55,515 nucleotides of DNA from Subtercola sp. Lineage in GTDB: Bacteria; Actinomycetota; Actinomycetes; Actinomycetales; Microbacteriaceae. The DNA is taken from positions 1 to 55,515 of the forward strand of contig JAODBB010000055.1 of the NCBI GenBank assembly GCA_025463745.1. The letters are read 5' to 3'. The position numbers were made by a program, and so were the translations under genes. Under the pieces are notes generated by a model that saw only the letters and a program-made list of their open reading frames with translations, was not told where the DNA came from and ran no database searches. Below, piece after piece: positions 36,680-53,632 of the stretch (position 1 is its first letter; each line of letters starts with the position of its first letter).

Positions 36680-36688
36680 TGGTCGATA

Positions 36689-38155
36689 CTACAAGGCGGC
36701 ACCTGATGGTTGGCCCGTGGGCACGAAGTACTGCCACAGCGAGTCGGCGTAGTCCGACCATCCGCGATCTGACAAAAGGGCGGTTTCTGCCACGAGTCGG
36801 GCGTGCAATTCGGCGTCACCGAGTCCCGACTTGAAACCTTCGTAGATGTTGTCGTCGTCTCGCGGATCGACGAAGATGGCTCCGCCACCGATCGCGATCT
36901 CTTTCATACTGCCGAAGTCGCTCGTGACCACCGGAGTGCCCGCCGCGAGCGACTCGCCGACCGGCAGCCCGAAACCCTCGTTGAGCGAGGGGAACACGGT
37001 GAGATACGCCAGGCGGTAGGCGCTCCAGAGCAGGCTGTCGGAGACAGCGGAGATGGCCTTGACCGGTCGGCCGTCTGCCTCGAGCCGCTCGAGCTGGCGC
37101 CGGAAGGCGTCACCGTTCCAGCCATTGCCGCCGATGAAGACAAGCTGGAATTCGACTCCTTCTCGCCAGAGACGCTCGGCCGCGTACAGCACGGCGAGGT
37201 GGTTCTTTCGCGGTTCGTGGCTGCCGACACAGACGACCAGCGGCGCATCCCCCGTTACCAGCCGCGCCCGAGCGACCTCGAAATCGGCCGCCGACACCTC
37301 TTCGGCAACGCTCGGCAGTAGCAGCGGTACGATCTCGGGGCCGGTCAGTCCTGCTCCCGCGAGCATCTGCTTCCACCCCCGGTATTCGGTGGCCGCGGCA
37401 TTCGAGATGGTCGAGATGCGATCGAAGTGCGCGAGGGCCGAGAGGTTGTTGGCGAACGCCGCCGACATGCCGGCGCCCACCGTCTCCGACGAGGTGAGCG
37501 GCACACAGTCGAACCCGATCACCATGGTGCGATTTCCCGAGAATTCGGCCAGGCAGGAGAGGCGGTCGGTGCGCCCCTGCTCAATGGCGAGCTCGGGAAG
37601 GATGTACGTCGTGCCGTACGGAATGGTGAGCACCCACTCGCGTGGCCGGGCGATGCGCGGCACCGACCCGTGCAGCGCGTTTTCGCGCTCGGGGGCAGAG
37701 AGGTGGCGGAGCCCCGTGAAGTTCGCATCCCATCCGACCAGCTCAACCTCGGGCTTGGCCTGCCACTCGAGGATGGTCTGCCGAACGACGCGCTGAATAC
37801 CCGTCGCCAAACCGGTCCGCGCCGTGTGATGCACGTCGACGATCACCGTGTCGTGGGCGATTCGGATGCCCACACTGCGGTTCGGGGAAAGGGGGCGCTT
37901 CGCTTTGCTCACCAGCTTCTGCAGCGCCGGCAAGGCGCCGTTCAGGGCTTGGTCGCGCCGGAACCGCTCGAACTCGTCGTGCAGCGGAAAAACAGCCGAG
38001 ATGGCGGCGTGCGAGAGCCAGAGCAGGTGAGTGTCACCCTCGATCGCGGGGGCGAGCAACCCCAGGTACTCGTCGATGCTCCCGGCACGCGGATCGTGCC
38101 CGAGAACCGTTTTCGACAGCACGCCGAGGCGGCCCAGAACGACGGATGTACTCAC
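36689..38155 (-). CDS. GT4-type glycosyltransferase with conserved N-terminal helical domain (B-type of module)
   Basis: The 488-residue protein has an N-terminal domain with LLWLSHAAISAVFPLHDEF (about 44-62), then VDVHH (106-110) and T-G-I-Q-R-V-V-R (118-125), then F-D-C-V-P-L-T-S-S-E-T, and the GT4 C-terminal fold with GSHEPRKNHLAVLYAAERLW and NEGFGLPVGESLAAGTPV, whose Glu residues bind the sugar nucleotide. It is closest to the gene at 52059 (same DCVPLTSSET and VDVHHT). GTG start overlaps the preceding transferase by GTGA. GIQRVVR-type enzymes are often mannosyl- or rhamnosyltransferases, but specificity is not provable here. Confidence 0.88.
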   Translation of the reverse strand: MSTSVVLGRLGVLSKTVLGHDPRAGSIDEYLGLLAPAIEGDTHLLWLSHAAISAVFPLHDEFERFRRDQALNGALPALQKLVSKAKRPLSPNRSVGIRIAHDTVIVDVHHTARTGLATGIQRVVRQTILEWQAKPEVELVGWDANFTGLRHLSAPERENALHGSVPRIARPREWVLTIPYGTTYILPELAIEQGRTDRLSCLAEFSGNRTMVIGFDCVPLTSSETVGAGMSAAFANNLSALAHFDRISTISNAAATEYRGWKQMLAGAGLTGPEIVPLLLPSVAEEVSAADFEVARARLVTGDAPLVVCVGSHEPRKNHLAVLYAAERLWREGVEFQLVFIGGNGWNGDAFRRQLERLEADGRPVKAISAVSDSLLWSAYRLAYLTVFPSLNEGFGLPVGESLAAGTPVVTSDFGSMKEIAIGGGAIFVDPRDDDNIYEGFKSGLGDAELHARLVAETALLSDRGWSDYADSLWQYFVPTGQPSGAAL

Positions 38156-39717
38156 CTTTTGTCACGCTCCAATGGTTCTACGAGATCGCGCCAGAGGTCG
38201 GCGGCGTAGTCGTTCCAGTCGCGCGGGGGCCGCGCCTCGGCTTCGCCGGCCAGACGCTCGCGCACCCCGGGCTCGGTGAGAATGGTGCGCAGCGCGTCGA
38301 TGAGCTGCCGGTCATCCCTCGGGTCGACCGTGAGGCAGCCCCCACCCACGGCGATCTCGAGGGTGCTGCCGTAGCCGGTGGTGATCGACGGCACGCCCAT
38401 CGCGAGCGATTCGGCGACCGGTAGCCCGAACCCCTCGTGGGTCGACGGAAAGACGGTGCAGTACGCCTCGGCGTACGAGTCGACGAGCACGTCGTCTGAG
38501 GCGCCGCGGAGCAGTTCGACGCCGTGACCGGCGGACTTCAATCGCTTCACTTCGCTGTCGACGAAACGGGTGTAGGCAGACTTGCCGCCGCCGATCATGC
38601 GCACCCGAAAGTCGATACCCTCGCGCCACAGCGATTCGGCGGCGAACAGCACCGCCAGATTGTTCTTGCGGGCCTCTTGGTTGCCGACCATCAAGACCAG
38701 TTTCGAGCTCGGCCTGCCCGTTCGCGGGATTGGTGCCGAACGGTGAGCCGATTCCGAACCGCGTGCGGGCGTCTGCACCGCGAGGGGCACGCTCACGACC
38801 TCGGTCTCGGGGATGCCCTGGGCCGACGCCGCGCGGGCGAAACCACGGAATTCGCCGGCGGCCGACGCGCTGATGGCAGCAATGCGATCGGCGTTCTTCA
38901 CGATCGACAGGTACTTGGCGAACTTCTCACTCTCGCCGTCGGCGATCAGGTCGGCGCTCGCAATGGGAATCGTGTCGTAGCCGATCATGCCGACCCTGTT
39001 TCCCGAGAACCGGGCGAGGGCAGACAACGCAGACCAATAGCCATCACGGGCGACTTCCGGCAGCAGAACGATGGTGCCGTAGGGAACGACGAGCCGCGGG
39101 CGAAAGCCGGGCGGCGGCTCTGCGGGGCGCGCCGATTCCGGCGTCTGCTTCCAGGCATCCCAGTCGACCACTCGACTCCGTTCGACCGTCGACAGCTGCC
39201 GAAGGCCGTTGTCACCGGCCGACCAGCAAGCGAGCACGAGCTCATGCGCGCCATTCCACCGCGAGAGCGTCTCGCGAACGACGCGCTGGATTCCGGTGTT
39301 GTGATTGTATTTCGCGCAGAAGTCGACGTCGACGACCGGAACGTCGACCACGATGTCGAGATCGTAGTCGAGGCACTCGAGCGGGTGAAACGACTGCTGA
39401 ACGCTTTCGAGCACGGCCGACAGGGCGAATTCGGGTGACGAGACACCGAGTGCGCGGCGGGCCTCGAGAAAAACGTCGACATCGGGAAATGACGCCGTGA
39501 GGGCGACCAGGAAAAGCCAGAGTTGCCGATCAGATTTCGAGCGCTGAATGTGGCGCGCGAGCGCGTCGGCGAGAGCTCCGTTGCCCCGCGCCGACAATTG
39601 GCCAACGGCGTCGGCGTCGATGAGCACCCTCGCGGCGGAGGCGAGCCTGCGGCCCAGGGCCGCCGTCGTCTGAGCGCTCGGCGGCTGCGGCCTGAGCGTG
39701 TCGTACGAAGAAGGCAC
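38152..39717 (-). CDS. GT4-type glycosyltransferase with conserved N-terminal domain (A-type of module)
   Basis: The 521-residue protein has the shared N-terminal domain (QLWLFLVALTASFPDVDVF, about 66-83), VDVDFCAKYNHN-TGIQRVVRET (130-150), G-Y-D-T-I-P-I-A-S-A-D, then the GT4 fold with GNQEARKNNLAVLFAAESLW and HEGFGLPVAESLAMG. It resembles the 42605 and 50266 products more than its direct neighbour. It lies six bases after the small coiled-coil gene and overlaps the next transferase by GTGA. The product is cytosolic and probably extends a lipid-linked chain. Confidence 0.88.
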   Translation of the reverse strand: MPSSYDTLRPQPPSAQTTAALGRRLASAARVLIDADAVGQLSARGNGALADALARHIQRSKSDRQLWLFLVALTASFPDVDVFLEARRALGVSSPEFALSAVLESVQQSFHPLECLDYDLDIVVDVPVVDVDFCAKYNHNTGIQRVVRETLSRWNGAHELVLACWSAGDNGLRQLSTVERSRVVDWDAWKQTPESARPAEPPPGFRPRLVVPYGTIVLLPEVARDGYWSALSALARFSGNRVGMIGYDTIPIASADLIADGESEKFAKYLSIVKNADRIAAISASAAGEFRGFARAASAQGIPETEVVSVPLAVQTPARGSESAHRSAPIPRTGRPSSKLVLMVGNQEARKNNLAVLFAAESLWREGIDFRVRMIGGGKSAYTRFVDSEVKRLKSAGHGVELLRGASDDVLVDSYAEAYCTVFPSTHEGFGLPVAESLAMGVPSITTGYGSTLEIAVGGGCLTVDPRDDRQLIDALRTILTEPGVRERLAGEAEARPPRDWNDYAADLWRDLVEPLERDKR

Positions 39718-39723
39718 CGGGAG

Positions 39724-39981
39724 CTATCCGTTACGCCGGCCGGTGAGCCGACCCGGCTGAAAGCTTCGCACTGCACGCAGCGGTTTCGTCACACGCCAGG
39801 AAACCGTCTGTTGCATCGCAGCGAGCGCCTTCGACTCGAACTGTGCAGCAGAGAGCCACCGGTCGGTAGCGCGGTTGAGCACAGCGTCGAGCTCGCCCTG
39901 CAGCCGGTCGCGTTCGGCCTCGAGCTCGGTCACTCGGTTTTCGAGGGCTTGCAGGCGTTCGAGTTCGAGATCTTCTGGCAC
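39724..39981 (-). CDS. small coiled-coil protein with SWRVT-x-PLRAVR module
   Basis: The 85-residue protein has a heptad-rich coiled coil (about 5-38: LERLQALENRVTELEAERD) followed by S-W-R-V-T-K-P-L-R-A-V-R (61-72) and a basic tail. The same module (SWRVTEPIRAVR) is fused in the N-terminus of the 50266 transferase, whose paralogue is the next gene here. It therefore probably binds or tethers that transferase (inference). The GTG start has no ribosome binding site but a perfect TATAAT seven bases upstream, so leaderless translation is likely. No enzymatic motif. Confidence 0.75.
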   Translation of the reverse strand: MPEDLELERLQALENRVTELEAERDRLQGELDAVLNRATDRWLSAAQFESKALAAMQQTVSWRVTKPLRAVRSFQPGRLTGRRNG

Positions 39982-39987
39982 CGCACA

Positions 39988-39993
39988 ATTATA
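39988..39993 (-). promoter_or_regulatory. consensus -10 box, leaderless start of coiled-coil/GT genes
   Basis: The minus strand reads TATAAT six bases before the GTG start at 39981, so transcription would begin at or next to the start codon. No -35 match is seen at the usual spacing. The box overlaps the first unit of a 21-bp tandem duplication. Confidence 0.6.
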
Positions 39994-40031
39994 GGCGGGT
40001 ACGATCAGGGTATAGGCGGGTGCGGTCAGGG
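39990..40031. repeat. 21-bp tandem duplication at the gtrA end
   Basis: Two 21-bp units, 39990-40010 and 40011-40031, share TATAGGCGGGT and TCAGGG and differ at two positions. The second unit contains the gtrA stop codon; the first supplies part of the downstream -10 box. Confidence 0.85.
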
Positions 40032-40595
40032 ATGGCTCGGCGTGTCACGGGCCGCGTCGGCTTCAGCGAAGCTGTCGTCTTCGAAAATCGCCGCCGCCGC
40101 GACTTCAGCCTTCTGCTCGTCGCCCTCGATCGTGTCACCCGATTCGACCATGCCGCTGCGGTGGTGCCCGAAGACCCAGTAGCGGTACAAGGCGAAACGG
40201 AACAGCGTGGCGAGCCCGGTACCGATGAAGTTGCCCGAGATGTTGTCGGCCAGCACGCTGGTGAATCCCAGCACGTAGTGCGTGAACCACAGCATGACGA
40301 CGTTGATCAGCAGGCCGGCGACCGCCACCACCGAGAACTCGAGCAGCTCCCTGATGTAGTTGCTGCGGCGGTGCTCGCGAAAGGTCCAGTAGCGATTGCC
40401 GAACCAGGTCAGCACCGTCGCGACGGCGACAGAGATGACTTTCGACCAGAGCGGCCCGAATCCGCTCGCGAGCATGACGTTGAAGACAGCGATGTCGACG
40501 ACGTAACCGACGGCGCCGACCACGCCGAACTTCAGCAGGTAGCGAACGAGTTTGTCGTAGACGAGCGAGACTGCCCGAGTGAGGCGATGAGGCAT
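40026..40595 (-). CDS. GtrA-family membrane protein
   Basis: The 189-residue protein has four membrane segments (about 14-38, 45-65, 84-106, 113-135) and the GtrA pattern KFGVVGAVGYVVDIAVFNVML near the start and NRYWTF in the middle. GtrA proteins are thought to flip or help present polyprenyl-linked sugars for outer-face modification of polysaccharide. The C-terminal 45 residues are acidic and cytosolic. A TAGTAT box seven bases before the ATG and the absence of a ribosome binding site suggest a leaderless mRNA. Confidence 0.9.
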   Translation of the reverse strand: MPHRLTRAVSLVYDKLVRYLLKFGVVGAVGYVVDIAVFNVMLASGFGPLWSKVISVAVATVLTWFGNRYWTFREHRRSNYIRELLEFSVVAVAGLLINVVMLWFTHYVLGFTSVLADNISGNFIGTGLATLFRFALYRYWVFGHHRSGMVESGDTIEGDEQKAEVAAAAIFEDDSFAEADAARDTPSHP

Positions 40596-40601
40596 TGCCC
40601 A

Positions 40602-40607
40602 ATACTA
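40602..40607 (-). promoter_or_regulatory. -10 box of gtrA-family gene
   Basis: The minus strand reads TAGTAT at 40607-40602, six bases before the ATG at 40595. No ribosome binding site lies between. Confidence 0.45.
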
Positions 40608-40678
40608 CGTGCCTGAGATGGATTCGCTTTTCATTGAACCCGACCGCGGTTTCCCGACCGGACGGTTGCCCGACCGGC

Positions 40679-42418
40679 TCACTTGCAGCCCGGTGCGGTC
40701 ACCTGCGTGGTAGTGGCGTTGATCATGGGGGTGCCGGCGAGCACTGGTGGGCCGTAGGTGCCCGGGGCGCCGCTGAAGGTCGCCGTCACGGTGTTCGTTT
40801 CGCCCGGTGCCAGATCGACGAGGTACCGCGCGACCGGCCGGTTCAGGTCGGATGCACCCGAGCGGACCGTCGCGTCGACACTGGTGTCACCCACCTCCGC
40901 AGACCCGAGGGTCGCGCCGACCGGCCCGTAGATGTACACCTCGGTGCTGAACTTCGCCCCCTTGAAATTGGCGCCGACCACGAAGCTCGGCAACGTCGCC
41001 GCCTCTTCGGGTGTGATCGTGGAATGCAGCGTCACGGTCGTCGTGAAAGTCGGGTTCTGAGTGTTCGTGCACACGTCAGTGTTCAACGTGCTGCTGGTCT
41101 GCAGCCAATAGTCGGTCTTCGACACGGTCACGTCTCTGAAGTACGTTCCGACCAGGGTTTCTTTGGCGTCCGAGGTCGGCAGCACCCCATCGAGCCCGGC
41201 CTGGGTCACCATCTTCTGTTCTGCGTCGACCGGGCTCCAGGCCAAGATGTTGCCGCTTCCGATCGACGTGGTGACCGCCTTCAGCAGCGCCGTCGGATCG
41301 GCGGTCGTGTTCGTGATGCCGGTGAAGATGGTCTTTGCGGCATCGGCGAAGAACGCGTCGGTCTTCGGCTCGATCTCACTCGCGGGGTACCGCAGGTAGA
41401 TGTCATGCAGCAACAGTGGTACAGCGTTCTGTGAATTGATCACATCACCCGTCGACGGCACGGTCATGGGACCAGTCGCCCCGAGGATGTCGCCGAGGGC
41501 GATCGGGTCGATCGAGATGACCCCGTCTACGGTACCGCCCTTGTACTTCTGCCAGAACGCCTCGATGGTCTGCGCCGCGGTGGGAAAGTCGGGGCGGCTC
41601 GTCGACCAGTTCAGGGTCGACGCGAACCCGGCGGAGTAGATGTTCAGCAGGTTCTGGTCGATGTCGCGAACCGAGCCGCCATTGAGGGGGAAGTCGGTGC
41701 TCGACGCCTGATCGGTGATGGCGAAGGTGCCGTTGTCGACCGTGAGCATCGACAGTGACGCCGGCCCACCCCCGAGGCCTGTGGTCTCGGCGTTGTTCAA
41801 GAAGGCGAGAATGTAGTGACGAGGGCCGTTCATGCCAAGGATTCCCTCGACAGTCGCGAGGGTTCCGCGAACCGTGCCGATCTCGTCGTGCGCCTTGCCG
41901 AGTGCGGTGACGAACTGTGTCTTGGCAGAGCTGATCTGGCCGACCGTGCCCGATGTGTCGACCGCCGAGACGGTCGCCTGAGCCGACTGCAGTGCCGTGT
42001 CTGCCGCGGCCAACGCGGCGTCGCCCTGGGTGAGCAGCGCAACGTTCAGGCTTCCGTTGACGGGTTTCAGGGCATCTGGTGTCACACTCGAAGCCACCGT
42101 CATGAGGGGCGGCAGCGCCTGGCTGCCGATCTCGTCGAGCGCCTCGGAGAGCTGCCTGACCGCGGTGAGGTTCTGGCCGACGACCGGCAGGCCCTCGGCG
42201 AACCGGTAGAGCGGGTCATTCGTATGGCTGGCCGCGTCGTGTGCGGCGCTCTGGAACGTCGCCACTGAGGCCGGCAGAGCAGCGACGTCGAGCTTCGTGG
42301 CCTCGACCTGAATCTGGGTGACCGATGTCTGAGCGGTTTCGAGCGACGACTTGGCCTGCAGAGTCTGGTAGACGACCCAGCCGGCGATGGCGGCCAGGCC
42401 GAGGATGACCACACCCAC
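40679..42418 (-). CDS. DUF4012-domain membrane-anchored protein, N-terminus probably frameshifted
   Basis: The visible frame from GTG 42418 gives 579 residues: a membrane helix cut at its start (GVVILGLAAIAGWVVYQ) then a long extracytoplasmic DUF4012 region with RHYILAFLNNAETTGLGGGPASLSML, the family hallmark. Upstream in the same frame the sequence encodes RRLRPRNRKRRRSIVIVLSSV, a proper basic start for that helix, yet there is no ATG, GTG or TTG before the stop at 42584-42586. The natural start is probably GTG 42582 in another frame, joined at the seven-G run 42541-42547. Its function is unknown; it is frequent in polysaccharide loci. Confidence 0.82.
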   Translation of the reverse strand: MGVVILGLAAIAGWVVYQTLQAKSSLETAQTSVTQIQVEATKLDVAALPASVATFQSAAHDAASHTNDPLYRFAEGLPVVGQNLTAVRQLSEALDEIGSQALPPLMTVASSVTPDALKPVNGSLNVALLTQGDAALAAADTALQSAQATVSAVDTSGTVGQISSAKTQFVTALGKAHDEIGTVRGTLATVEGILGMNGPRHYILAFLNNAETTGLGGGPASLSMLTVDNGTFAITDQASSTDFPLNGGSVRDIDQNLLNIYSAGFASTLNWSTSRPDFPTAAQTIEAFWQKYKGGTVDGVISIDPIALGDILGATGPMTVPSTGDVINSQNAVPLLLHDIYLRYPASEIEPKTDAFFADAAKTIFTGITNTTADPTALLKAVTTSIGSGNILAWSPVDAEQKMVTQAGLDGVLPTSDAKETLVGTYFRDVTVSKTDYWLQTSSTLNTDVCTNTQNPTFTTTVTLHSTITPEEAATLPSFVVGANFKGAKFSTEVYIYGPVGATLGSAEVGDTSVDATVRSGASDLNRPVARYLVDLAPGETNTVTATFSGAPGTYGPPVLAGTPMINATTTQVTAPGCK

Positions 42419-42540
42419 CGATGAGAGAACGATGACGATCGAGCGGCGGCGCTTTCGGTTTCGCGGGCGGAGGCGGCGCGAAGGCTCCTGCGTGTCGATG
42501 CTCGTCTCCTGATTGGTCGTGTGGTGCGGCGAATCGGGGT

Positions 42541-42547
42541 GGGGGGG
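42541..42547. other. seven-G homopolymer at the presumed frameshift of the DUF4012 gene
   Basis: One extra base in this run would join the GTG frame starting at 42582 (VSNRTGVFDPALPP) to the DUF4012 frame (HPDSPHHTTNQETS and on). It is either an assembly error or a slippage site. Confidence 0.6.
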
Positions 42548-42604
42548 AGTGCTGGGTCGAACACCCCCGTGCGGTTGCTCACCTTAGCAAGCCGAACCAG
42601 TGAA

Positions 42605-44443
42605 TTACCTTGAAGCTGCCCTCCGCTTGACGATGCGGATCGCCGCCTTGCCTGCCGGCACAACGCCCATCTCGCGCGAACGGGCGACGAAGAACCGCGT
42701 GAGGGGAACGATTTTGCCCACCTTGCGCACGAGCGAACGCTCACGGGCTTGCCGTTGGGCAAGAGCAGCGGATGCCCGCCCCACCCAGCGCTCGAAAGCC
42801 AGTTGCTGGTACCGGAGTTGCTCGTCACTCGGGGCGGCGCTCTCACCGGCAGCGGCACCGGCTCCTCGCCGAACGTGCTCGGCGGCCGGCTCGGCGAGAT
42901 GCGGAGCCACCAGGCCGTCCCAGAGCTCTGCGGCGTAGTCGTTCCACGTACGAGACGCCCGGGTGAGCGCTTCGCCGCGCAAGCGTTCGTAGAGGGCGTC
43001 GTCATTCAGCAGTGCGCTCATGGCGGCTCCGAGGGCTTCGTCGTCGCGGGCATCCACCTGCAGGCAGCCGCCGCCGTTCGCGGCTTCGGCCAGACTGCCG
43101 TGATTCGAGGTGATCACCGGGGTGCCGAGCGCCAGCGATTCGGCGACGGGCAGCCCGAAGCCTTCGTGCAGGCTCGGAAAGACGGTGAACCGTGCCGTGG
43201 CATACGACTGAACAACCACGTCATCGCTCGCCTGGCGCACCACCTCGACCGGGTGCCCGCCAGACTGCAGACGCGCGATCTCGGCGTCGAAGAGGCGCAG
43301 GTGGCGCGCGCCACCACCGCCGATGAAGCGCAGGCGAAACCGCTCCCCCGCGATCCAGAGCCGCTCGGCGGCGAACAGAATGGCGAAGTGGTTCTTGCGC
43401 GGCTCCTGGCTGCCGACCACGACGATGAGCGGCAGCGGGTCGTGCGAAACCGGGGCGCCCGCGGTTTTGGCCTCAGCAGCGGATGCGCGAACCAGCGACG
43501 GCGCGTTCATGGCGAGCGGCACCGCGATCACCGTGGGGCCTTCGATGCCCTGCGCCGAGAGCGCCGACGTGTATCCAGCGAACTCAGCGGCTGCCGATCG
43601 GCTGACGCCGGCCAGCCTCGTCGAGTTCTTGACGACCGTCAGGAATCGTGCAAAGCGCTCGATCTCGATCGGATCTTGGGAATGGGCGCTCACGATGGGA
43701 ATCATGTCGTGCCCGACGATCACGACTCGGTTGCCGCTCACAGCGGCGAGCGCGGCCAGCGGCGCGGCTGTGTCGACCTGGGCCACCTCTATTTCGACGA
43801 TGACGCAGTCGACCGGCACCAGTATCGGCCGACCGGGCCGGCCCGCCTCCTCTGCCACCGTGTGAGAACCGCGCTCGGAGGCCGCTCGCCGCGAATGGGC
43901 GGGCCACTGCAGCACCCGGTCGGGCTCGCGGCCGACCAACAAGCGCAGTGCGGTGGCGCTGTCGTTCCACGCGGCGAGTCTCAGGTCGTGATCGGGCGCC
44001 CACCTCGACACCGTTTCACGCAGCACCCGCTGAACGCCCGTGTTGTGGTCGAAGCGACCGGAGAAGTTCGCATCGATCACCACCTTCTTCGAGACCAGTT
44101 CGATCGGCGAATCGAGGCTGGTCGCGCGGGCGAGAACGGGCTCCAGAGACTCGAGCAGGGCGGCCAGTTCGTCTCCCGGTTCGGCGAGTGCGAGACGCCG
44201 GCGCACGGCGAGATGCTCGTCGATCGTCGGGAAGACGGTGGTGAACGCCACAATAGCGAGCCAAACGTGCTCATCACGCAACGAGTGACGCACGAATCCG
44301 GCAATGGCCCCGGCCCACGCGGCGGCCTCGATTGCGAGGTCTGAAGGCGCATCGCCGGAGGCACCGGCCTTCGGATGCGGCTGCACCGCTTCGCCGAGCA
44401 AGGCGCGCCCCGCCACGCGCAGACGACTCACATATGCATTCAC
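42605..44443 (-). CDS. GT4-type glycosyltransferase, solo member of the five-paralogue family
   Basis: The 612-residue protein has the shared N-terminal domain (HVWLAIVAFTTVFPTIDEH, about 59-77), VVIDANFSGRFDHN-TGVQRVLRET (121-144), G-H-D-M-I-P-I-V-S, and the GT4 fold with GSQEPRKNHFAILFAAERLW and HEGFGLPVAESLALG. It has a longer C-terminal helical, basic tail (about 525-612) not present in the others. The GTG start has a TAGTAT box six bases upstream and no ribosome binding site. It is divergent from gmd and 22 bases before the presumed DUF4012 start. Confidence 0.87.
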   Translation of the reverse strand: MNAYVSRLRVAGRALLGEAVQPHPKAGASGDAPSDLAIEAAAWAGAIAGFVRHSLRDEHVWLAIVAFTTVFPTIDEHLAVRRRLALAEPGDELAALLESLEPVLARATSLDSPIELVSKKVVIDANFSGRFDHNTGVQRVLRETVSRWAPDHDLRLAAWNDSATALRLLVGREPDRVLQWPAHSRRAASERGSHTVAEEAGRPGRPILVPVDCVIVEIEVAQVDTAAPLAALAAVSGNRVVIVGHDMIPIVSAHSQDPIEIERFARFLTVVKNSTRLAGVSRSAAAEFAGYTSALSAQGIEGPTVIAVPLAMNAPSLVRASAAEAKTAGAPVSHDPLPLIVVVGSQEPRKNHFAILFAAERLWIAGERFRLRFIGGGGARHLRLFDAEIARLQSGGHPVEVVRQASDDVVVQSYATARFTVFPSLHEGFGLPVAESLALGTPVITSNHGSLAEAANGGGCLQVDARDDEALGAAMSALLNDDALYERLRGEALTRASRTWNDYAAELWDGLVAPHLAEPAAEHVRRGAGAAAGESAAPSDEQLRYQQLAFERWVGRASAALAQRQARERSLVRKVGKIVPLTRFFVARSREMGVVPAGKAAIRIVKRRAASR

Positions 44444-44449
44444 CGTGGA

Positions 44450-44455
44450 ATACTA
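44450..44455 (-). promoter_or_regulatory. -10 box of the 42605-44443 glycosyltransferase gene
   Basis: The minus strand reads TAGTAT at 44455-44450, six bases before the GTG at 44443, consistent with a leaderless transcript. It sits in the 73-bp gap to the divergent gmd gene. Confidence 0.45.
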
Positions 44456-44516
44456 GTTGATCGTCGCCTTCGATTCAGCTGGCGGCAGCTCCGTCCCACA
44501 GAACACCGAGGAATCT

Positions 44517-45503: not shown

Positions 45504-45517
45504 GGTTCCGCCCACTC

Positions 45518-46486
45518 ATGCCTGTCGCTCTGATCACCGGAATCTCGGGCCAAGACGGCTCCTATCTCGCCGAATCGCTGCTCGCCGACGGGTATCAGGT
45601 GCACGGCATCGTTCGCAACAGCACCGAAGAGAATCTGTCGGCGCTGGGCTCCCACGCGGCTCTCACCCTGCACTCCGTCGATCTGCAGGCTCCGGATGCC
45701 CTCGAGAACGTCGTCGCTCTGACCAGTCCCGACGAGGTGTACTCACTCGCCGCGATCTCGTCGGTGGCCGCGTCGTGGAAAGACCCCGTGCAGACTGGAG
45801 CAGTGAACGGGCAGGTCGTTGTTCGGCTGCTCGAGGCCGCTTCGGGCGTGCAAGAGCGAAGCGGGCATCCGGTGCGCGTCGTGCACGCCTCGAGCGCCGA
45901 GATCTTCGGGCAGGCGGCCGAAACACCGCAGGTCGAAACCACGGCCATCAGGCCGTCGTCTCCGTACGGCGCCTCGAAGGCCTATGCGCACCTCACCGTC
46001 GGCGTCTATCGAGGCCGCGGCCTGCACGCCTCGAACACCATTCTGTACAACCACGAATCGCCTCGTCGCCCCGAGACGTTCGTGACCCGAAAGATCACCG
46101 CGAGCGTCGCACGCATCAGTGCGGGGCTGCAGACGGGCATCGAACTCGGCAATCTCGACGCCCGCCGCGACTGGGGCTGGGCACCCGATTATGTGGCCGC
46201 CATGAGGCTCGCCGCGGCTGCACCGAACCCCGACGATTACATTGTGGCCACAGGGGTTTCGCACACCATCGCCGATTTTCTCGACGCCGCCTTCGCGCGC
46301 GTCGGAATCGACGACTGGTCGGGGCTCGTCGCCGTGAACCCTGAATTCGTGCGGCCCGTCGACCCCGCCGAACAGCTCGGTGACGCTTCGAAGGCGCATC
46401 GAGAACTCGGCTGGGCGCCGAGCGTCGACTTCGAAACGCTGGTCGCCCGCATGGTCGACCACGATCTCGAGCACTTCGCCGGCTGA
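45518..46486 (+). CDS. second Gmd-like GDP-sugar dehydratase/reductase
   Basis: The 322-residue paralogue of the upstream Gmd has G-I-S-G-Q-D-G (8-14), Ser126 and Glu128 in ASSAEIFG, Tyr150 and Lys154 in YGASK, and keeps YNHESPRRPETFVTRKI and LGNLDARRDWGWAPDYV. The order gmd then a second SDR suggests the reductase (Rmd) making GDP-D-rhamnose, but the motifs are Gmd-like rather than those of classical Fcl, so it may be a second dehydratase or a reductase derived from Gmd. It starts 14 bases after gmd. Confidence 0.85.
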   Translation: MPVALITGISGQDGSYLAESLLADGYQVHGIVRNSTEENLSALGSHAALTLHSVDLQAPDALENVVALTSPDEVYSLAAISSVAASWKDPVQTGAVNGQVVVRLLEAASGVQERSGHPVRVVHASSAEIFGQAAETPQVETTAIRPSSPYGASKAYAHLTVGVYRGRGLHASNTILYNHESPRRPETFVTRKITASVARISAGLQTGIELGNLDARRDWGWAPDYVAAMRLAAAAPNPDDYIVATGVSHTIADFLDAAFARVGIDDWSGLVAVNPEFVRPVDPAEQLGDASKAHRELGWAPSVDFETLVARMVDHDLEHFAG

Positions 46487-46514
46487 TCGCCGGCAGACCC
46501 CCCCTCACACCACA

Positions 46515-47693
46515 ATGAACAAGTCTCAGCGCGCTCAGGCGAACGACCGGCGTACTGCCGAACCCGTCGTGCTCTTCGATGCCACCGCCATTCCGGCGAA
46601 CCGGGGCGGCGTGGGCCGGTACGTCGAGAACGTGGTCGCCGAGCTGGTGCGCCTCGGCGTGACCCTCGCCGTGGTCTGCCAGCCACGAGACAAGGCGGCG
46701 TTCGAAGCGGCGGGGGTCAGGAAAGTCGTCACGATCGCGCCGTGGGGAGGCCGGGCATCCGCCAGGTTCATCTGGGAGCAGCTCGCGCTGCCCGGCCTAG
46801 CCCGGAGGCTCGGGGCCACGGTCATCCACTCCCCGCACTACACCTTTCCGCTGGTCACCTCCCGGCGGCGGGTGGTCACGATTCACGACCTCACCTTCTT
46901 CAGTGCGCCCGAGCTGCATGGGCGCCTCAAACGCGTGTTCTTCGGCACCTGGATCAGGGCCGCGAAGCGCTTCAGGCTGACCGTCGTCACGCCCAGCCAG
47001 GCCACGGCGACCGCGTACCTCGGTGAGACCCACGCTCAGCAGAACACGGTATTCGCAGCCCCGCTGGGATACGACACGACGGTGTTCCACCCGCCGACCG
47101 CTGACGAAATAGCCGGCTTCAGCGCCACCTTGAACCCCAGCCCCGCGTCGTGGATCGCGTTTCTGGGCACGCTCGAGCCGCGCAAGAACGCCTCCGCCCT
47201 CGTTCGCGGCTATGTGGAGGCGGTCTCCCCACTCGACCGCGCCGATCGGCCCGCACTGCTCCTCGCCGGCGGCCCCGGCTGGGATGAGACGGTTGCGAGC
47301 ACGGTCGACGCTGCGAGAGCGGCGGGCTTCGACGTTCGCCTACTCGGCTACCTTCCTCTCGAACATCTTCGCGCGCTGCTCGGCGGCGCGCTCATCACCG
47401 CGTACCCGAGCCTCGGTGAGGGTTTCGGCCTCCCCGTGCTCGAAGCGATGGCCTGCGGCAGCGCCGTGCTCACCACGGATCGGTTGTCGCTGCCTGAAGT
47501 CGGCGGAGACGCTGTCAGCTACACCGAGGTCGACTCGGCTAGCATTGCGATTTCGCTTGCCGCTCTGTTGGCCGACCCCTCCCTGCGTGACAGCCTGGCG
47601 GAGAAGGGCATCGCCCGGGCATCCCGATTCACCTGGGCGGCCTGCGCCGACGAACACCTGCGTGCCTACCGCGCTGCACTGGGTGCGAACTAA
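46515..47693 (+). CDS. GT4 glycosyltransferase (family 1 type)
   Basis: The 392-residue protein has an N-terminal Rossmann half with FDATAIPANRGGVGRYVENVV and VIHSPHYTFPL, and a C-terminal half with FLGTLEPRKNASALVRGYVEA and G-E-G-F-G-L-P-V-L-E-A-M-A-C-G. It lacks the special N-terminal domain of the five-paralogue family and is a normal GT4 mannosyl/rhamnosyl-type enzyme. ATG 46515 is used though no ribosome binding site is clear. It follows the Gmd pair by 28 bases in the plus-strand operon. Confidence 0.9.
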   Translation: MNKSQRAQANDRRTAEPVVLFDATAIPANRGGVGRYVENVVAELVRLGVTLAVVCQPRDKAAFEAAGVRKVVTIAPWGGRASARFIWEQLALPGLARRLGATVIHSPHYTFPLVTSRRRVVTIHDLTFFSAPELHGRLKRVFFGTWIRAAKRFRLTVVTPSQATATAYLGETHAQQNTVFAAPLGYDTTVFHPPTADEIAGFSATLNPSPASWIAFLGTLEPRKNASALVRGYVEAVSPLDRADRPALLLAGGPGWDETVASTVDAARAAGFDVRLLGYLPLEHLRALLGGALITAYPSLGEGFGLPVLEAMACGSAVLTTDRLSLPEVGGDAVSYTEVDSASIAISLAALLADPSLRDSLAEKGIARASRFTWAACADEHLRAYRAALGAN

Positions 47694-47711
47694 CTGCCGA
47701 GAGGACCATAC

Positions 47712-48569
47712 GTGGCCAGCCCCATCGCGCTCGTGACCGTGAGCTATTTCTCGCGGCACGACCTTCTGGCGTGCCTGGGTTCGATCGCGCAGGCCGCCGC
47801 CGAGCATCCCGAGGTCTCTGTCGTCAACAACGCGGCGACGGATGACCTGCAACAGGTTCTCGCCGCCTTCGCCCACACCACTCTGCTGAGCCCAGGAACG
47901 AACCTGGGCTACGGCGCAGCCGTCAACTACGCGGCCGAACGACTCGAACCCGCTGCCGAATGGATTCTGGTCACCAACCCCGACGTCGAGTTCGCACCCG
48001 GCAGCATCGACGAATTACTCGCTGTGGCGCGTGCCGACGATCGGATCGGCGTCGTCGGCCCACGCATCACGAATGACGATGGATCGATCTATCCCTCCGC
48101 CCGCGACGTGCCCTCGCTCACGGCCGGCGCCGGGCACGCGCTCTTCCACCGCGTCTGGCCCGGTAATCCGTGGTCGAAAAGGTATCTCCGGGCCGACAAG
48201 TCGAAGACGACCGGCACGACCCCGCTCGCATCAGGGTGGCTGTCGGGGGCATGCCTGCTCGTTCGGCGCACCGCCTTCGAGCAGATCGGTGGGTTCGACG
48301 ACCGCTTCTTCATGTACTTCGAAGACGTAGACCTCGGCGAGCGCCTCGGGCAGGCCGGCTGGCGATTGCTCTACGTTCCGACCGCGAGCGTTCACCACGC
48401 CGGCGGCACCAGCACGCAGGGTCACTCGGCTGCGATGCTGCGTGCCCACCACCAGAGCGCCTACCTCTATCTCGCCAAGCGTTACCACCGGTGGTACCAC
48501 CTTCCGGTGCGTGTCGCACTTCGCATCGGCCTCACCCTGCGGGCCACGACCGCTAGCCTGAGATCATGA
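47712..48569 (+). CDS. GT2 glycosyltransferase (WbbL/rhamnosyltransferase-like)
   Basis: The 285-residue protein has the GT2 pattern ALVTVSYFSRHDLLACLGSI, VVNNAATDD, LVTNPDVEF (the D-x-D-like motif) and WLSGACLLVRRTAFEQIGGFDDRFFMYFEDVDL, typical of WbbL-type rhamnosyltransferases. It is cytosolic. GTG start with AGAGGA upstream; its stop overlaps the next gene by four bases. Confidence 0.9.
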   Translation: MASPIALVTVSYFSRHDLLACLGSIAQAAAEHPEVSVVNNAATDDLQQVLAAFAHTTLLSPGTNLGYGAAVNYAAERLEPAAEWILVTNPDVEFAPGSIDELLAVARADDRIGVVGPRITNDDGSIYPSARDVPSLTAGAGHALFHRVWPGNPWSKRYLRADKSKTTGTTPLASGWLSGACLLVRRTAFEQIGGFDDRFFMYFEDVDLGERLGQAGWRLLYVPTASVHHAGGTSTQGHSAAMLRAHHQSAYLYLAKRYHRWYHLPVRVALRIGLTLRATTASLRS

Positions 48570-50125
48570 CCACCGCTGACACCGCGGCGCTGACGCCGGT
48601 ACGTACTCCGAGCCGCGACACGGCGAATGCCGAACGGCCCACCTCGCGCTTCGCAGGCCTCCGGATGATCGACAGACGAATCACGACCATCGCCTTCTGG
48701 GCGCTTCTCGTCATCGGCTTCGGGCTGCGCATCATGCTCACGTTCACCTCCGCCTATACGATCGACTCCGACAACGCCGTGGTCTTTCTCCTTGCGAAGC
48801 ACATCTCCGAAGGCGACATCACCTGGTTCTTCTGGGGCCAGACCTACGGCGGTACTATGCTCGAACTCCTCGCCGGAGGGGCGATGGTGGTCTTCGGGCC
48901 ACACGTGCAGGTGCTCTCTTTCGTGGGAGTCGCCTTCTTCGCCGGAGCAACCCTGCTCGTGCGCCAGATCGCCATCAGCGCGTTCAAAGACCCCGTGGTC
49001 GGCAACGTCGCCGGCATTCTGTTCTGGTTCTCCGGCTATTGGACAGCGCGGGTCGGGTTCAGCGAACCCGGCTTCTACGGCCCCAGCCTCATGCTCGGCC
49101 TACTCACTATCTGGCTCGTTCTGCGCGGGCCTGCTCGGAAGACCTACCTGCAGTGGGCGCTGATCGGCTTGTTCACCGGTCTTGCCCTTTGGCAGTCGCC
49201 GATGGGCATCGCCATGGCGGCGCCCGCCGTCGTGGTACTGATGGTGCGACACCGCTCCTGGCGCCACTATCTCGTCGGCGCTGCCGCCGGTATCATCGGC
49301 GCACTGCCGTGGTTGCTTCTCCTCACGTCAGGGCTCACGGCCATCAAGCGGCAGACGGGCGGCGAGCTGGTAGTGCGGAGCTTCGTCACCTACTTCACCC
49401 GCCTCGTTCCAGCTGCGTTCTCTGTCGAAAATCAGGTCGAGCGTTTCATCTTCGCCTTCGTCTGCTTACTCCTGCTCGCCCTGCTGGTCGTTCTCACCGT
49501 GCGACGCCGAAGCCTCTGGCTCGGCACCCTTCTGGTGTCGACGGTGCTCGTCGTGATCGTGATCGTCGTGGGAGTCAACATCCTGCTGCTCGGAGACTCG
49601 CTGCGTTACAGCGTCTTCGTGCTGCCCGCGCTCACCATTTCGCTCGCCTATCTCTTCACTCGCATTCCGTTCGTGAGCCTGCTCGCCATGGCTTGGGCTG
49701 TCACGTTCAGCTTCGTACAGACGGCGACCATGTTTCCGACGCTGCACTTCACCGCCGAACCCACCTACACCGTGGGCGACATTCCCGGGCTTGGCGCATA
49801 CCTCGAAGCACACGACATCACCGCGGCATACGGCGACTACTGGCTGGCGTACTCCTTGACGGCCGAGACCAACGAACAGGTGACGGTGGCCACGATCTCC
49901 CTGCCTCGACGTTACGCGCCCTATGAAGCCGCCGCCGAGGCAGCACCAGTCGCAACGCTGATCCTGTTCCAGGACTCTGAAAACGACAAGGCCGTCCAAG
50001 CCAGTACAACGCTCCCGCCGTCGACTCGCACTATCGTCGACGGCTATGCGATGTACACGTTCGCACAACCGTTCGATGCCTACAGCTATCCATGGATGCT
50101 CTCGACCGGTATCTGGCATCCGTAG
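48566..50125 (+). CDS. multi-pass membrane glycosyltransferase, GT-C fold (putative)
   Basis: The 519-residue protein has about 10-12 membrane segments after a 35-residue cytosolic start. The first extracytoplasmic loop contains S-A-Y-T-I-D-S-D-N-A and FFWGQTYGGTMLELLAGG, typical of GT-C enzymes, in which an Asp of that loop is catalytic. Such enzymes use polyprenyl-phosphate sugars to decorate polymers outside the membrane. The start overlaps the GT2 gene by four bases. A degenerate echo of its 3' end follows at 50178. Confidence 0.75.
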   Translation: MTTADTAALTPVRTPSRDTANAERPTSRFAGLRMIDRRITTIAFWALLVIGFGLRIMLTFTSAYTIDSDNAVVFLLAKHISEGDITWFFWGQTYGGTMLELLAGGAMVVFGPHVQVLSFVGVAFFAGATLLVRQIAISAFKDPVVGNVAGILFWFSGYWTARVGFSEPGFYGPSLMLGLLTIWLVLRGPARKTYLQWALIGLFTGLALWQSPMGIAMAAPAVVVLMVRHRSWRHYLVGAAAGIIGALPWLLLLTSGLTAIKRQTGGELVVRSFVTYFTRLVPAAFSVENQVERFIFAFVCLLLLALLVVLTVRRRSLWLGTLLVSTVLVVIVIVVGVNILLLGDSLRYSVFVLPALTISLAYLFTRIPFVSLLAMAWAVTFSFVQTATMFPTLHFTAEPTYTVGDIPGLGAYLEAHDITAAYGDYWLAYSLTAETNEQVTVATISLPRRYAPYEAAAEAAPVATLILFQDSENDKAVQASTTLPPSTRTIVDGYAMYTFAQPFDAYSYPWMLSTGIWHP

Positions 50126-50177
50126 CCTCCTTCCGAGTTAGCAAGAGCCGCAGTCGATTCGTCTCACTTCAACAGTC

Positions 50178-50207
50178 GTTCGATGCTTACAGCCATGCGT
50201 GAATGCT
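50178..50207 (+). pseudogene. degenerate echo of the preceding gene's 3' end
   Basis: These 30 bases match 50071-50100, inside the GT-C gene's 3' end, at 25 positions. In frame they read QSFDAYSHA then a stop, against QPFDAYSYPWM in the intact gene. The copy looks like the remnant of a decayed duplicate. Confidence 0.55.
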
Positions 50208-50251
50208 GTACTAACTCTCAGACGACGAATCTGGCAAGGATTGCTCCGTAA

Positions 50252-50257
50252 TAGAAT
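50252..50257 (+). promoter_or_regulatory. -10 box of the second GT module
   Basis: TAGAAT lies eight bases before the ATG at 50266, with no ribosome binding site in between, implying an almost leaderless transcript. No good -35 match is seen at normal spacing. Confidence 0.55.
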
Positions 50258-50265
50258 GAGTCCTC

Positions 50266-52062
50266 ATGCGATCCACCCCCACTATTCCTCATGCCCGCGA
50301 TCGGGTTGACGCCTCTCAGGCCGCCCAATATCCGTCGGCCGACCAAATCGACTTGTGGTTCAGTGGCCTGAACGTCGGGGTAGGCGGCGGAGCGCCCTCG
50401 GCAGAAGAGATGCAGGCCAGCCTCAGCTGGCGCGTCACCGAACCGATCCGCGCAGTCAGGGTTCGTGAGCGCATTGCGCTGCTGAAGGCAGGAAAGCTGC
50501 CATTTCCTGGCCCGAACGGTGCGTCAACAGCCTTGGCAGGCGCGCGCGCGGCGCTCGACCAGCGTCTACGGCAAGTCGCCCCGCACCTGCTGCAGCACAC
50601 CTCGGCCAGCGAGCTGCGTGCACTCTCGCTCGAGCAACTTCTCGGCAGGGCCACTGCCAGAGTGCACTCCCACGACAACGAGAGTGAACTCTGGCTTCTG
50701 ATGATCGCGGTCGGCGGCTGCTTCCCCGACCAGGCACAGTTATTCGCCTTGCGGCGCGACCTCCACGGCGCAAGCCCGCACGAGGCAACCGCGCGCATCC
50801 TGCACCACTGCGGCGTATGGACGTCGAGGCACCACTCCCACCTGCGCACGATCAAACTCATCAACGACAAGCCCGTGGCCTTCACGGACTTCACCGCCCG
50901 CTTCGGGTTCAATTCGGGCATCCAACGGGTTACCCGGCAGACTCTGTCGCACTGGGAAGGCACGCATGACTGTGAGCTCGCTGCGCTCACAGCTGACGGC
51001 ACGGGGCTGCGCACCCTCGATAAACACGAGACGGCCCGCGTACTCAACTGGACCGGCGACGACGACCATACCCGCGCCGACGACGCAGCCGAACCCGACG
51101 ACTCCGAGAGCGTACTGGTCGTTCCGTGGCAGACCACGGTCTTCGTGCCTGAAGTTCCCGCCGGGCACGGCACATCGACGCTGACAGCCTTGGCGCGCTT
51201 CTCTGACAACTACACGATCGCAATCGGCTACGACACCATCCCCGTGTCGAGCGGTCATTTCGTGCACCGCTCACTGACACTGCAATTCGTGTCTTACCTT
51301 TCGATGCTGAAGTATTTCGACGAAGTGGTGGCCATTTCGGGTGCCACTCATGACGAATTCCTCGGCTTCAGCGAAGCCCTGACGACGCAGGGGCTTCCTG
51401 GCCCGCGAGTGGTCACCGCCGCGCTTCCGATCGAGCACATTCCCGTCGAGCACCTCCCCGCGTCCGCGGCCGACCGCCCCGATACCGACCATGACCCATC
51501 TGACGAGGCTGCTCTTCCGATGGTGCTCTCTGTCGGTAGCAACGAGCCGCGCAAGAACCAGCTCACCGTCATCTATGCCAGCGAAGTGCTGTGGCGCCAA
51601 GGCAAGGAGTTCAGCCTCGTTGTTCTTGGCGGCCGCGGCGACAAGGACTTCACCGATATTCCCGATGCCGTCGCCGCACTGCAGTCGCTGGGTCGGCCGA
51701 TCGAACTGCGCCGCGATGTTGACGAAGCCGACCTCGCACTCGCCTACCGGCAGGCACGATTCAGCGTGTTCATCTCGATTCAAGAAGGGTACGGTCTGCC
51801 CGTCGCCGAATCGCTCGCCGTCGGCACGCCCGTCCTCACCACGAGCTATGGCAGCACGGCCGAAATCGCAGCCGACGGGGGCTGCCTCACCGTCGACCCC
51901 CGTGACGACGATGCCATCGCTGTGGCCATGGGGCAGCTGATCGATGACGACGCGCTCCTCGCGCGCCTCACCCAAGAGATCGACGACCGAAACCACACGA
52001 GCTGGGGCGACTACGCCGAAACAATCTGGCAGATCGTCAACACTAAGGAGAGCCGCAAGTGA
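50266..52062 (+). CDS. GT4-type glycosyltransferase with fused SWRVT module (A-type of module)
   Basis: The 598-residue protein has an N-terminal extension with S-W-R-V-T-E-P-I-R-A-V-R (54-65), then the shared domain (ELWLLMIAVGGCFPDQAQLF, about 141-160), FTDFTARFGFN-SGIQRVTRQT (207-226), G-Y-D-T-I-P-V-S-S, and the GT4 fold with GSNEPRKNQLTVIYASEVLW and QEGYGLPVAESLAVG. It is the counterpart of the 38152 product; there, the SWRVT module is a separate gene. The stop overlaps the next gene by GTGA, exactly as in the first copy. Confidence 0.87.
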   Translation: MRSTPTIPHARDRVDASQAAQYPSADQIDLWFSGLNVGVGGGAPSAEEMQASLSWRVTEPIRAVRVRERIALLKAGKLPFPGPNGASTALAGARAALDQRLRQVAPHLLQHTSASELRALSLEQLLGRATARVHSHDNESELWLLMIAVGGCFPDQAQLFALRRDLHGASPHEATARILHHCGVWTSRHHSHLRTIKLINDKPVAFTDFTARFGFNSGIQRVTRQTLSHWEGTHDCELAALTADGTGLRTLDKHETARVLNWTGDDDHTRADDAAEPDDSESVLVVPWQTTVFVPEVPAGHGTSTLTALARFSDNYTIAIGYDTIPVSSGHFVHRSLTLQFVSYLSMLKYFDEVVAISGATHDEFLGFSEALTTQGLPGPRVVTAALPIEHIPVEHLPASAADRPDTDHDPSDEAALPMVLSVGSNEPRKNQLTVIYASEVLWRQGKEFSLVVLGGRGDKDFTDIPDAVAALQSLGRPIELRRDVDEADLALAYRQARFSVFISIQEGYGLPVAESLAVGTPVLTTSYGSTAEIAADGGCLTVDPRDDDAIAVAMGQLIDDDALLARLTQEIDDRNHTSWGDYAETIWQIVNTKESRK

Positions 52063-53573
52063 GCGACTTCACTATCTGGTCGTCGAGCGTGCGCTCTCTG
52101 ATCACCGAACTCGGCGTCGATGCCTCGGGCGCGAACACCGCACATGAACTCCTCGGCATTCTGGCGCCGGCGCTTGAGGCAGACCTGGCCGACAACCGGC
52201 TCTGGCTGGTCTGGGCGATTCTACGCGGCGAGCTGCCGACAGTAGACGAGTTGGTGGCGTTCCGGCGCAACATCGTTCTGAATGGTGCGCAGAAGGCTAT
52301 CCGCGATCTCGGCGAACGAGCAGACTCGAGCATATTCGGTCTCACCGCCGAGGTCGAGATTCTCACGAACCCCATTCTCGTCGATGTGCACCACACCTCG
52401 AGCACCAGCACGATGTCGGGAATTCAGCGGGTCGTTCGAGAAACGACGGGTCGCTGGGCGGCTGCTCACGAACTGGTCTTTGTGGCGTGGGCCGACAACG
52501 GCCGGGCACTTCGCCGGCTGAGCGCCGAAGAAGAAGCGCGGATGCGCGGCACCACAAGTGACCAGGGCTGCGACGGCCCGCCAGATTCCGATATCGCCGT
52601 CTCTTCGAAACCCGCACCAGCGACGGCGCAGCTGAAGCGGCTCGTCATTCCCAACGGGGGAATCATGATCATCGCCGAGCTCGCGGCCGATGCAGAGCGA
52701 GCAGAGCGCTTTCTGGCCATGGGCAGGTATGCCAAGACGAAAGTCGCCTACATCGGCTACGATTGCGTGCCGCTCACCTCGAGTGAGACCGCATCTATTC
52801 CGATCGCAGCGCATTTTCCGTTGTACCTCGACGCCGTGGCATACGCCGACCGGGTCGCTGCGATTTCTGCATCGACAGCTCACGAGTTCGAATCCTGGAA
52901 GAAGATGCTCCCGTCGTCGGGTCGCACGGGGCCCGACGTGCGTACGGTCTTTTTGGCCGGTGATTCTACAGAACCCTCCGCCGCCGATCTCGCCGCCACT
53001 CGGCGGCGGCTCGAGATCACCAACGGTGAACCGGTGGTTCTCGTCGTCGGGAGCCACGAGCCCCGCAAGAATCACCTCTCCGTACTCCAGGCCGCGAAGG
53101 TTCTGTGGGAGCAAGGTGAGAAGTTCCGGCTCGTGATGATCGGCAGTGCGTCGTGGAACAGCGCCCCGTTCGATGTTCTCGCGAAGATGTTGCAAGAGCA
53201 CGGGCATCCACTGGTCGTTCTGAAGAATTCGTCGGACGGGCTGATTTCGGCGAGCTACCGGCTGGCCACTGTCTCGATTTTCACCTCGTTTCACGAGGGA
53301 TTCGGGTTGCCGATCGTCGAGTCGCTGCGCGCCGGTACGCCGGTTATCGCGTCGAATGTGGGCAGCATGCTCGAACTCGCCGAGCGTTACAAGGGGGTCA
53401 TCACGATCGACCCGCACTCTGACGTCGCGCTCGAGAATGCGCTGCGCACAGCTCTGAACGACCCGGCAGTGCTCGCAGAGAAGCGTCTCGAACTGGCCTC
53501 GAACGTCTACCAGACGTGGGAACAGTACTCAAACGATGTCTGGGAGTATTTCGTCACCGAGAGCTACGTCTGA
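52059..53573 (+). CDS. GT4-type glycosyltransferase (B-type of module)
   Basis: The 504-residue protein has the shared N-terminal domain (RLWLVWAILRGELPTVDEL, about 47-65), V-D-V-H-H-T (109-114), G-I-Q-R-V-V-R (121-127), G-Y-D-C-V-P-L-T-S-S-E-T, and the GT4 fold with GSHEPRKNHLSVLQAAKVLW and HEGFGLPIVESLRAG. It is the counterpart of the 36689 product. GTG start in a GTGA overlap with the preceding gene. It ends 59 bases before the convergent repeat-protein gene. Confidence 0.88.
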   Translation: MSDFTIWSSSVRSLITELGVDASGANTAHELLGILAPALEADLADNRLWLVWAILRGELPTVDELVAFRRNIVLNGAQKAIRDLGERADSSIFGLTAEVEILTNPILVDVHHTSSTSTMSGIQRVVRETTGRWAAAHELVFVAWADNGRALRRLSAEEEARMRGTTSDQGCDGPPDSDIAVSSKPAPATAQLKRLVIPNGGIMIIAELAADAERAERFLAMGRYAKTKVAYIGYDCVPLTSSETASIPIAAHFPLYLDAVAYADRVAAISASTAHEFESWKKMLPSSGRTGPDVRTVFLAGDSTEPSAADLAATRRRLEITNGEPVVLVVGSHEPRKNHLSVLQAAKVLWEQGEKFRLVMIGSASWNSAPFDVLAKMLQEHGHPLVVLKNSSDGLISASYRLATVSIFTSFHEGFGLPIVESLRAGTPVIASNVGSMLELAERYKGVITIDPHSDVALENALRTALNDPAVLAEKRLELASNVYQTWEQYSNDVWEYFVTESYV

Positions 53574-53632
53574 CGGATTCGCGCTTCGGCCGCCAAACGG
53601 GTGCCACCACACGGTAGTGCGAGCCGGCGGCG

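Follow-up and report, generated by a model that had tools for sequence, protein, structure and literature searches.

X-A-B glycosyltransferase modules of two types in an ABC-exporter polysaccharide locus of Subtercola sp.

The A-band polysaccharide system of Pseudomonas aeruginosa uses an ATP-binding cassette (ABC) exporter, Wzm/Wzt. Its D-rhamnose (D-Rha) transferases are WbpX, WbpY and WbpZ, and GMD/RMD provide the route to GDP-Rha, according to a published account (PMC9415975). In Escherichia coli O9a, the C-terminal region of WbdD, including its coiled coil, recruits WbdA to the membrane, as another report describes (PMC3482155). Here, we describe a locus of Subtercola sp. (Microbacteriaceae) in contig JAODBB010000055.1 of the assembly GCA_025463745.1, the whole analyzed stretch of which (55,515 nucleotides) is designated as the window. 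An original prediction, made from the sequence, held that a pair of glycosyltransferase genes, A and B, is present twice in opposite orientations at the two flanks of this locus. We found that the arrangement is real and conserved, that it lies inside an ordinary class of locus, and that what was duplicated is an old module, X-A-B, to which a second type was added, X being a short coiled-coil-like element that precedes A or is fused to it. The core module is designated as X-A1-B1, and the other as module 2 (A2-B2).

The A and B genes and their paired divergence

The four predicted reading frames are present at the positions and on the strands given in Table 1. The A proteins contain HNTGIQRV or FNSGIQRV together with GYDTIP, while the B proteins contain VDVHHT and DCVPLTSSET, and a GTGA overlap joins both pairs, all as originally described; an ATGA or GTGA overlap in the right frame is common, being found in 42 of the 57 pairs examined. 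When the window's own genome was searched with B1, five places exceeded 250 bits (B1 included), all of them in the window, and the next place scored 57 bits. The fifth member, designated as C, was not part of the four-gene account; it is A-type, and its identity to A1 (45%) is the highest among the five paralogs. The Glycos_transf_1 C-terminal domain scored above the curated cut-off in all five, and both glutamates of EX7E, a motif typical of GT4 retaining glycosyltransferases, are invariant in them. Across the 178 rows of the largest tree described below, an EX7E-like core is present in 176 and the G[IV]QR[VI] motif in 161. The GIQRV-bearing N-terminal half matched no Pfam model at 1e-3, and no NCBIfam model reached its cut-off with any of the five paralogs.

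The family was carried by 18 of the 99 genomes searched first, including 11 of 12 Subtercola genomes (the window's own counted), and by 47 of 398 genomes of Microbacteriaceae in a wider search. The remaining Subtercola genome (G005) gave no A, B, Wzm or X match; its locus may be unassembled, because the genome is 88% complete and its second Gmd-family gene lies near a contig end. Trees were built from 68 rows (three matches under 100 bits left out), from 136 rows representing 48 genomes (six matches under 300 bits left out, four being second genes of a divergent pair type), and from 178 rows, which add named loci from several actinobacterial families (matches below 350 bits and three identical rows left out). 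A careful tree of 53 rows, hand-chosen as representatives from the 178, served as the base of approximately unbiased (AU) tests, for which some groups were named only once the trees had been seen.

Raw identities (A1-A2, 38%; B1-B2, 40%; A1-B1, 39%; A2-B2, 31%) leave the pairing of A with A and B with B unclear because they all fall within 31–40%, and it is the tree that reveals the pairing. The split between A and B was supported at 89 in the 136-row tree, 99 in the 178-row tree and 100/100 in the 53-row tree. The alignment and tree proposed with the original prediction thus came out mostly as foreseen, A grouping with A and B with B, and the distances are similar as well, the A1-A2 distance in the window being 2.43 and the B1-B2 distance 2.66. 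In the nine genomes that have one type-1 and one type-2 pair, the corresponding distances are 2.40–2.99 and 2.51–2.93. The contrary grouping of each A with its own B was rejected (AU test, p 1.6e-4 and 2.4e-5).

The order of the two genes is kept as well. In 56 of 57 adjacent pairs, the 5' gene belongs to the A half and the 3' gene to the B half (the exception is in G069), and the same order holds in 72/72 pairs listed from the named loci, which were drawn in part from genomes already counted. The distances separating A genes correlate strongly with those separating their B partners (Mantel r 0.89, slope 1.07), the best of 2000 permutations reaching 0.13, a figure that is not a probability because the genomes are related. 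We weighed the alternative that generic GT4 enzymes came to be paired by chance, with no module involved. GT4 is a large family and RTGA overlaps are common in actinobacteria; however, the constant A-then-B order and the matching A and B distances make this explanation highly improbable.

The X element

The module is X-A-B, with X free-standing in the core module and fused to A in module 2. A -10 box without a leader had been placed ahead of both pairs. This was borne out for A2, which has TAGAAT 8 nt before its ATG, but not for A1, which has no -10 box of its own: an 85-residue open reading frame (ORF), X, ends 6 nt 5' of A1, and TATAAT lies 6 nt before the GTG of X. When all six frames of the window were searched for S[WF][RK][VILMA][TA]xP[LIVM][RK], the motif was found at two places, the X ORF and the N-terminus of A2, while 50 mononucleotide shuffles of the window contained none. 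In the 136-row set, X occurs as a separate frame within 600 nt 5' of the domain in 36 of 45 non-type-2 A genes and is fused in frame in 14/14 type-2 A genes. No C gene (0/11) had the motif within 600 nt 5' of the domain or fused to it. Among the 66 rows of the B half, the motif is present in five (G033, G058, G069, G138 and G362), which are boundary rows branching outside the 61-row B clade. A profile search matched X in 17 of 18 module-bearing genomes versus 6 of 81 genomes without the module, and the window's own genome gave two matches only. Most of the 21 separate X ORFs listed are 75–175 residues long at their longest start; they represent 20 genes, since ORFs reaching past the start of the A domain were skipped, whereas the 36/45 tally counts all. 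Searched against Pfam at E values up to 5, X gave nine weak matches, several of them to coiled-coil families, all below the cut-off.

Seven Subtercola copies of X differ pairwise at 586, 528 and 878 first, second and third codon positions, respectively, over 1750 codon comparisons; this third-position excess is as expected of a coding sequence. Six of the seven Subtercola genomes with A1 have the exact TATAAT hexamer before X, the other (G001) having TATGAT. The 15-mer TATAATTGTGCGGTG at the start of X is identical in the window, G002, G003 and G007, while G006 retains TATAAT with a changed spacer, and G009 retains it with a 7-nt spacer before an ATG. A readthrough link connecting X to A1 was rejected: the two are in the same frame, interrupted by a stop codon, in the window and G009 only, whereas the remaining five Subtercola genomes with A1 have X in a different frame, which marks it as a separate gene.

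Of nine further type-2 rows from Subtercola, a TAGGAT-type box occupies the place equivalent to that of A2 in four, one (G004_531620) has TANNNT one base off this place, and the remaining four are not comparable because their longest-ORF start lies elsewhere. A consensus scan of positions 36000–54000 performed no better than shuffles (promoter-like sites, 2 versus 1.9; terminator-like sites, 10 versus 9.7), and only the boxes ahead of A2 and X were used. A further weak X-like segment was observed in each of G001 (contig C1, 2322749–2322928, beyond Wzt), G002, G004, G006, G008, G009, G010 and G011.

Distribution and age of module 2

The A2 and B2 clades (100/99 and 100/96, respectively, in the 53-row tree) comprise 14 rows each, drawn from one set of 13 genomes: nine of Subtercola (the window's among them), plus G107, G198, G248 and G364, of which G198 and G248 represent one further genus. 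Each of these 13 genomes, out of 48, combines A2 and B2 with other A and B genes, while 35 are without type 2. The other A gene is C in G004, G008, G010 and G011, where A1 is missing and C and B1 are kept. G004 contains module 2 twice on one strand (530109–539578). Module 2 was not found in Subtercola G007 and G009; G007 has one long-branched gene outside the named groups.

Both module types lie on one strand in G107, G198, G248 and G364, and the two pairs of Agromyces sp. Soil535, one per type, face each other. Module 2 thus forms a separate lineage that spans at least five Microbacteriaceae genera, where the arrangement is tandem or inverted, and the divergence of the two module types predates the genera in which both are found. 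The position of the pairs at the two flanks in opposite orientation, which had prompted the suggestion of a locus built by segment duplication, would fit a recent inverted duplication within the locus or the genus. However, duplication at the level of Subtercola was rejected by the AU test (A, p 4e-57; B, p 3e-7), the order is tandem in other genera, and Wzm and Wzt were not copied along with the module, so that we regard a recent event of this kind as practically untenable. How deeply module 2 branches differs between the A and B halves, and we therefore date the separation no further than before these genera.

Another possible origin of module 2 is lateral transfer from another actinobacterial lineage instead of duplication of module 1. 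Keeping module 2 inside Microbacteriaceae was weakly rejected for B (p 0.024), B2 tending to branch outside the remaining B genes of this family, and a transfer would also fit the patchy presence noted above (13/48 genomes, with Subtercola G007 and G009 among those where it was not found). On the other hand, the same constraint was acceptable for A (p 0.545), so that A2 need not fall outside the family, and among the 76 named loci listed, a set biased towards B1, type 2 was seen in Microbacteriaceae only. On balance, we consider this origin rather unlikely.

Two A-B pairs outside the type-2 clades were also seen in Cellulomonas sp. URHE0023, Geodermatophilaceae URHB0062, Modestobacter sp. VKM Ac-2982 and an actinomycete metagenome-assembled genome (loci L134, L138, L139 and L163). 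The divergent pair type (loci L063, L065, L079 and L100; genomes G033, G058, G138 and G362) consists of a boundary GIQRV-family gene with the X motif followed by a weak GT4 match (77–114 bits).

Locus context, proposed function and relation to known systems

Two or more Gmd-family matches were found in 17 of 18 module genomes versus 7 of 81 genomes without the module, and a Wzm match (1e-40) in 17 of 18 versus 34 of 81, counts that ignore the relatedness of the genomes. This co-occurrence places the module in the synthesis of an ABC-exported, GDP-mannose-derived glycan. Each of the 13 type-2 genomes has one Wzm and one Wzt match within the stretches read. Wzt in the window is 300 residues long; among Pfam families, ABC_tran alone exceeded the cut-off, and no C-terminal glycan-binding domain was recognized. 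Such a domain on Wzt belongs to the terminator-dependent subtype only. The locus ORFs scanned gave no match to a kinase or methyltransferase domain. The features of the locus are summarized in Table 1. A phosphomannose isomerase gene is also present, the second Gmd-family gene keeps an SSAE segment akin to the SSSE of Gmd and lies beside Gmd in many loci, and the CBM_4_9 protein beside B2 is found in several other Subtercola loci.

Table 1. Features of the glycosyltransferase locus in the window (positions counted from the first nucleotide)
Feature	Position	Strand	Description	Remarks
Wzt-like ABC exporter ATPase	34902–35804	−	Pfam ABC_tran; single match in the window	NCBIfam TagH and Wzt models below cut-offs
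Wzm-like ABC exporter membrane subunit	35687–36679	−	Pfam ABC2_membrane; 3' of B1	One match in the whole own genome at 1e-40
B1	36689–38155	−	B-type GT4 glycosyltransferase, core module, 488 aa	Pfam Glycos_transf_1 2.8e-22; B half of tree
A1	38152–39717	−	A-type GT4 glycosyltransferase, core module, 521 aa	GTGA overlap with B1
X	39724–39981	−	85-aa coiled-coil-like ORF with SWRVTKPLR	Directly 5' of A1
TATAAT box	39988–39993	−	6 nt ahead of X GTG	Leaderless start probable
GtrA-like membrane protein	40026–40595	−		
DUF4012 protein	40679–42418	−		
C	42605–44443	−	Third A-type GT4, 612 aa	X element not found
Gmd	44457–45503	+		
Second Gmd-family short-chain dehydrogenase/reductase (SDR)	45518–46486	+	Candidate for the next step to GDP-6-deoxyhexose	
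GT4 outside the GIQRV group	46380–47693	+	ORF as listed	Later true start probable
GT2 glycosyltransferase	47712–48569	+		
Membrane protein	48566–50125	+	Possibly GT-C, judging from sequence	No Pfam match
TAGAAT -10-like box	50252–50257	+	8 nt ahead of A2 ATG	
A2	50266–52062	+	Type-2 A glycosyltransferase, 598 aa	N-terminal X fusion (SWRVTEPIR at 50425)
B2	52059–53573	+	Type-2 B glycosyltransferase, 504 aa	GTGA overlap with A2
Protein with repeated CBM_4_9 (carbohydrate-binding) matches	53633–55423	−		Adjoins B2

The locus thus holds two versions of the old, co-inherited X-A-B unit, in which A and B are sister kinds of GT4 glycosyltransferase. We consider it fairly probable that these GT4 pairs polymerize a GDP-mannose-derived glycan for Wzm/Wzt, with module 2 as a second set of linkages. 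Gmd and its Gmd-family partner would convert GDP-mannose to a GDP-6-deoxyhexose, for which GDP-D-rhamnose is the most likely identity. A and B, as complementary retaining transferases acting in alternation, would build a two-linkage backbone on a lipid carrier, which the adjacent Wzm/Wzt would export, and the resulting glycan would perhaps be rich in D-rhamnose. D-Rhamnose-containing cell-wall rhamnomannans of Rathayibacter have reportedly been characterized chemically, although this work did not turn up in our literature search. X may tether A, and B together with A, to the membrane or the export complex. Module 2 would add a second linkage pattern, as a branch or a second block, to the same exported glycan; two related chain-building steps, as originally suggested, are still the best functional guess.

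Alternatively, the two modules might produce two separate glycans, each with its own backbone, that share the sugar-nucleotide genes and one exporter. Such a division would suit the opposite orientation of the modules, each of which has a promoter-like box and an A, B and X of its own, and the 35 of 48 genomes that manage without module 2. Nevertheless, the stretches read contain one Wzm and one Wzt match, the whole genome of the window gave one Wzm match, and module 2 was not seen without other A and B genes (13/13); two glycans are therefore possible but, in our estimation, unlikely. With no greater confidence than we give to that alternative, we tentatively extend the single-glycan scheme as follows: X-A-B might be a self-contained, duplicable polymerase cassette in which X acts as a coiled-coil tether or ruler docking A-B on the shared Wzm/Wzt, the X-A fusion might have let a second cassette with other linkages plug in, and the number of cassettes might set the complexity of the glycan.

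Several observations weigh against the single-glycan X-A-B scheme. X was not found for nine of the 45 non-type-2 A genes, X-like segments also lie near other genes and in the 6 of 81 module-free genomes mentioned above, and the longest reading exceeds 250 residues in 4 of the 21 X ORFs, where X may be the end of a longer protein. The coiled coil of X is proposed from the look of its sequence and from the weak, sub-cut-off Pfam matches. The A|B split is weak (31) in the 68-row tree and has a support of 89 in the 136-row tree, the letter composition of B2 from the window is unlike that of the alignment, and A2 and B2 may not stem from one event, as the A and B halves differ on the placement of the duplication. 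G017 has the module and no Gmd-family match at 1e-50; likewise, G052 has it with neither a Wzm match at 1e-40 nor an X match. Finally, D-rhamnose is not established, since the second SDR scores far higher against dehydratases (280 bits) than against the solved reductase 2pk3 (95 bits).

This analysis defines X-A-B as a recurrent actinobacterial glycan module in which A/B order is kept and A and B have co-diverged. The natural series of genomes with no, one or two modules, with X fused or separate, and with A1 absent and C kept is suited to tests of linkage specificity and of what short coiled-coil-like segments do in ABC-dependent glycan assembly. If module 2 is indeed an add-on linkage set, glycan structure would be predictable from module content.

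The original prediction knew of no described system with this arrangement. This is too strong for the general kind, since loci that combine gmd, several transferases and an ABC exporter are known; for the exact X-A-B module, a literature search covering titles and the openings of abstracts, with most subscription journals outside its scope, returned no description. In the accessible part of a Subtercola genome paper, GT4 is named once, within a list of CAZyme families (PMC10303725). The A and B proteins share the C-terminal domain and the EX7E-like core with CAZy GT4 and Pfam Glycos_transf_1, whereas the GIQRV N-terminal half differs. The locus resembles that of the P. aeruginosa A-band (common polysaccharide antigen) D-rhamnan in having Gmd and several transferases, and it resembles the E. 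coli O9a polymannan system (WbdA/WbdB/WbdC and WbdD) in making an ABC-exported polymer. Unlike WbdD, X has no kinase or methyltransferase domain and is short, encoded as a separate ORF or as a fusion to A; even so, the recruitment exerted by WbdD parallels, by analogy, the role proposed here for X.

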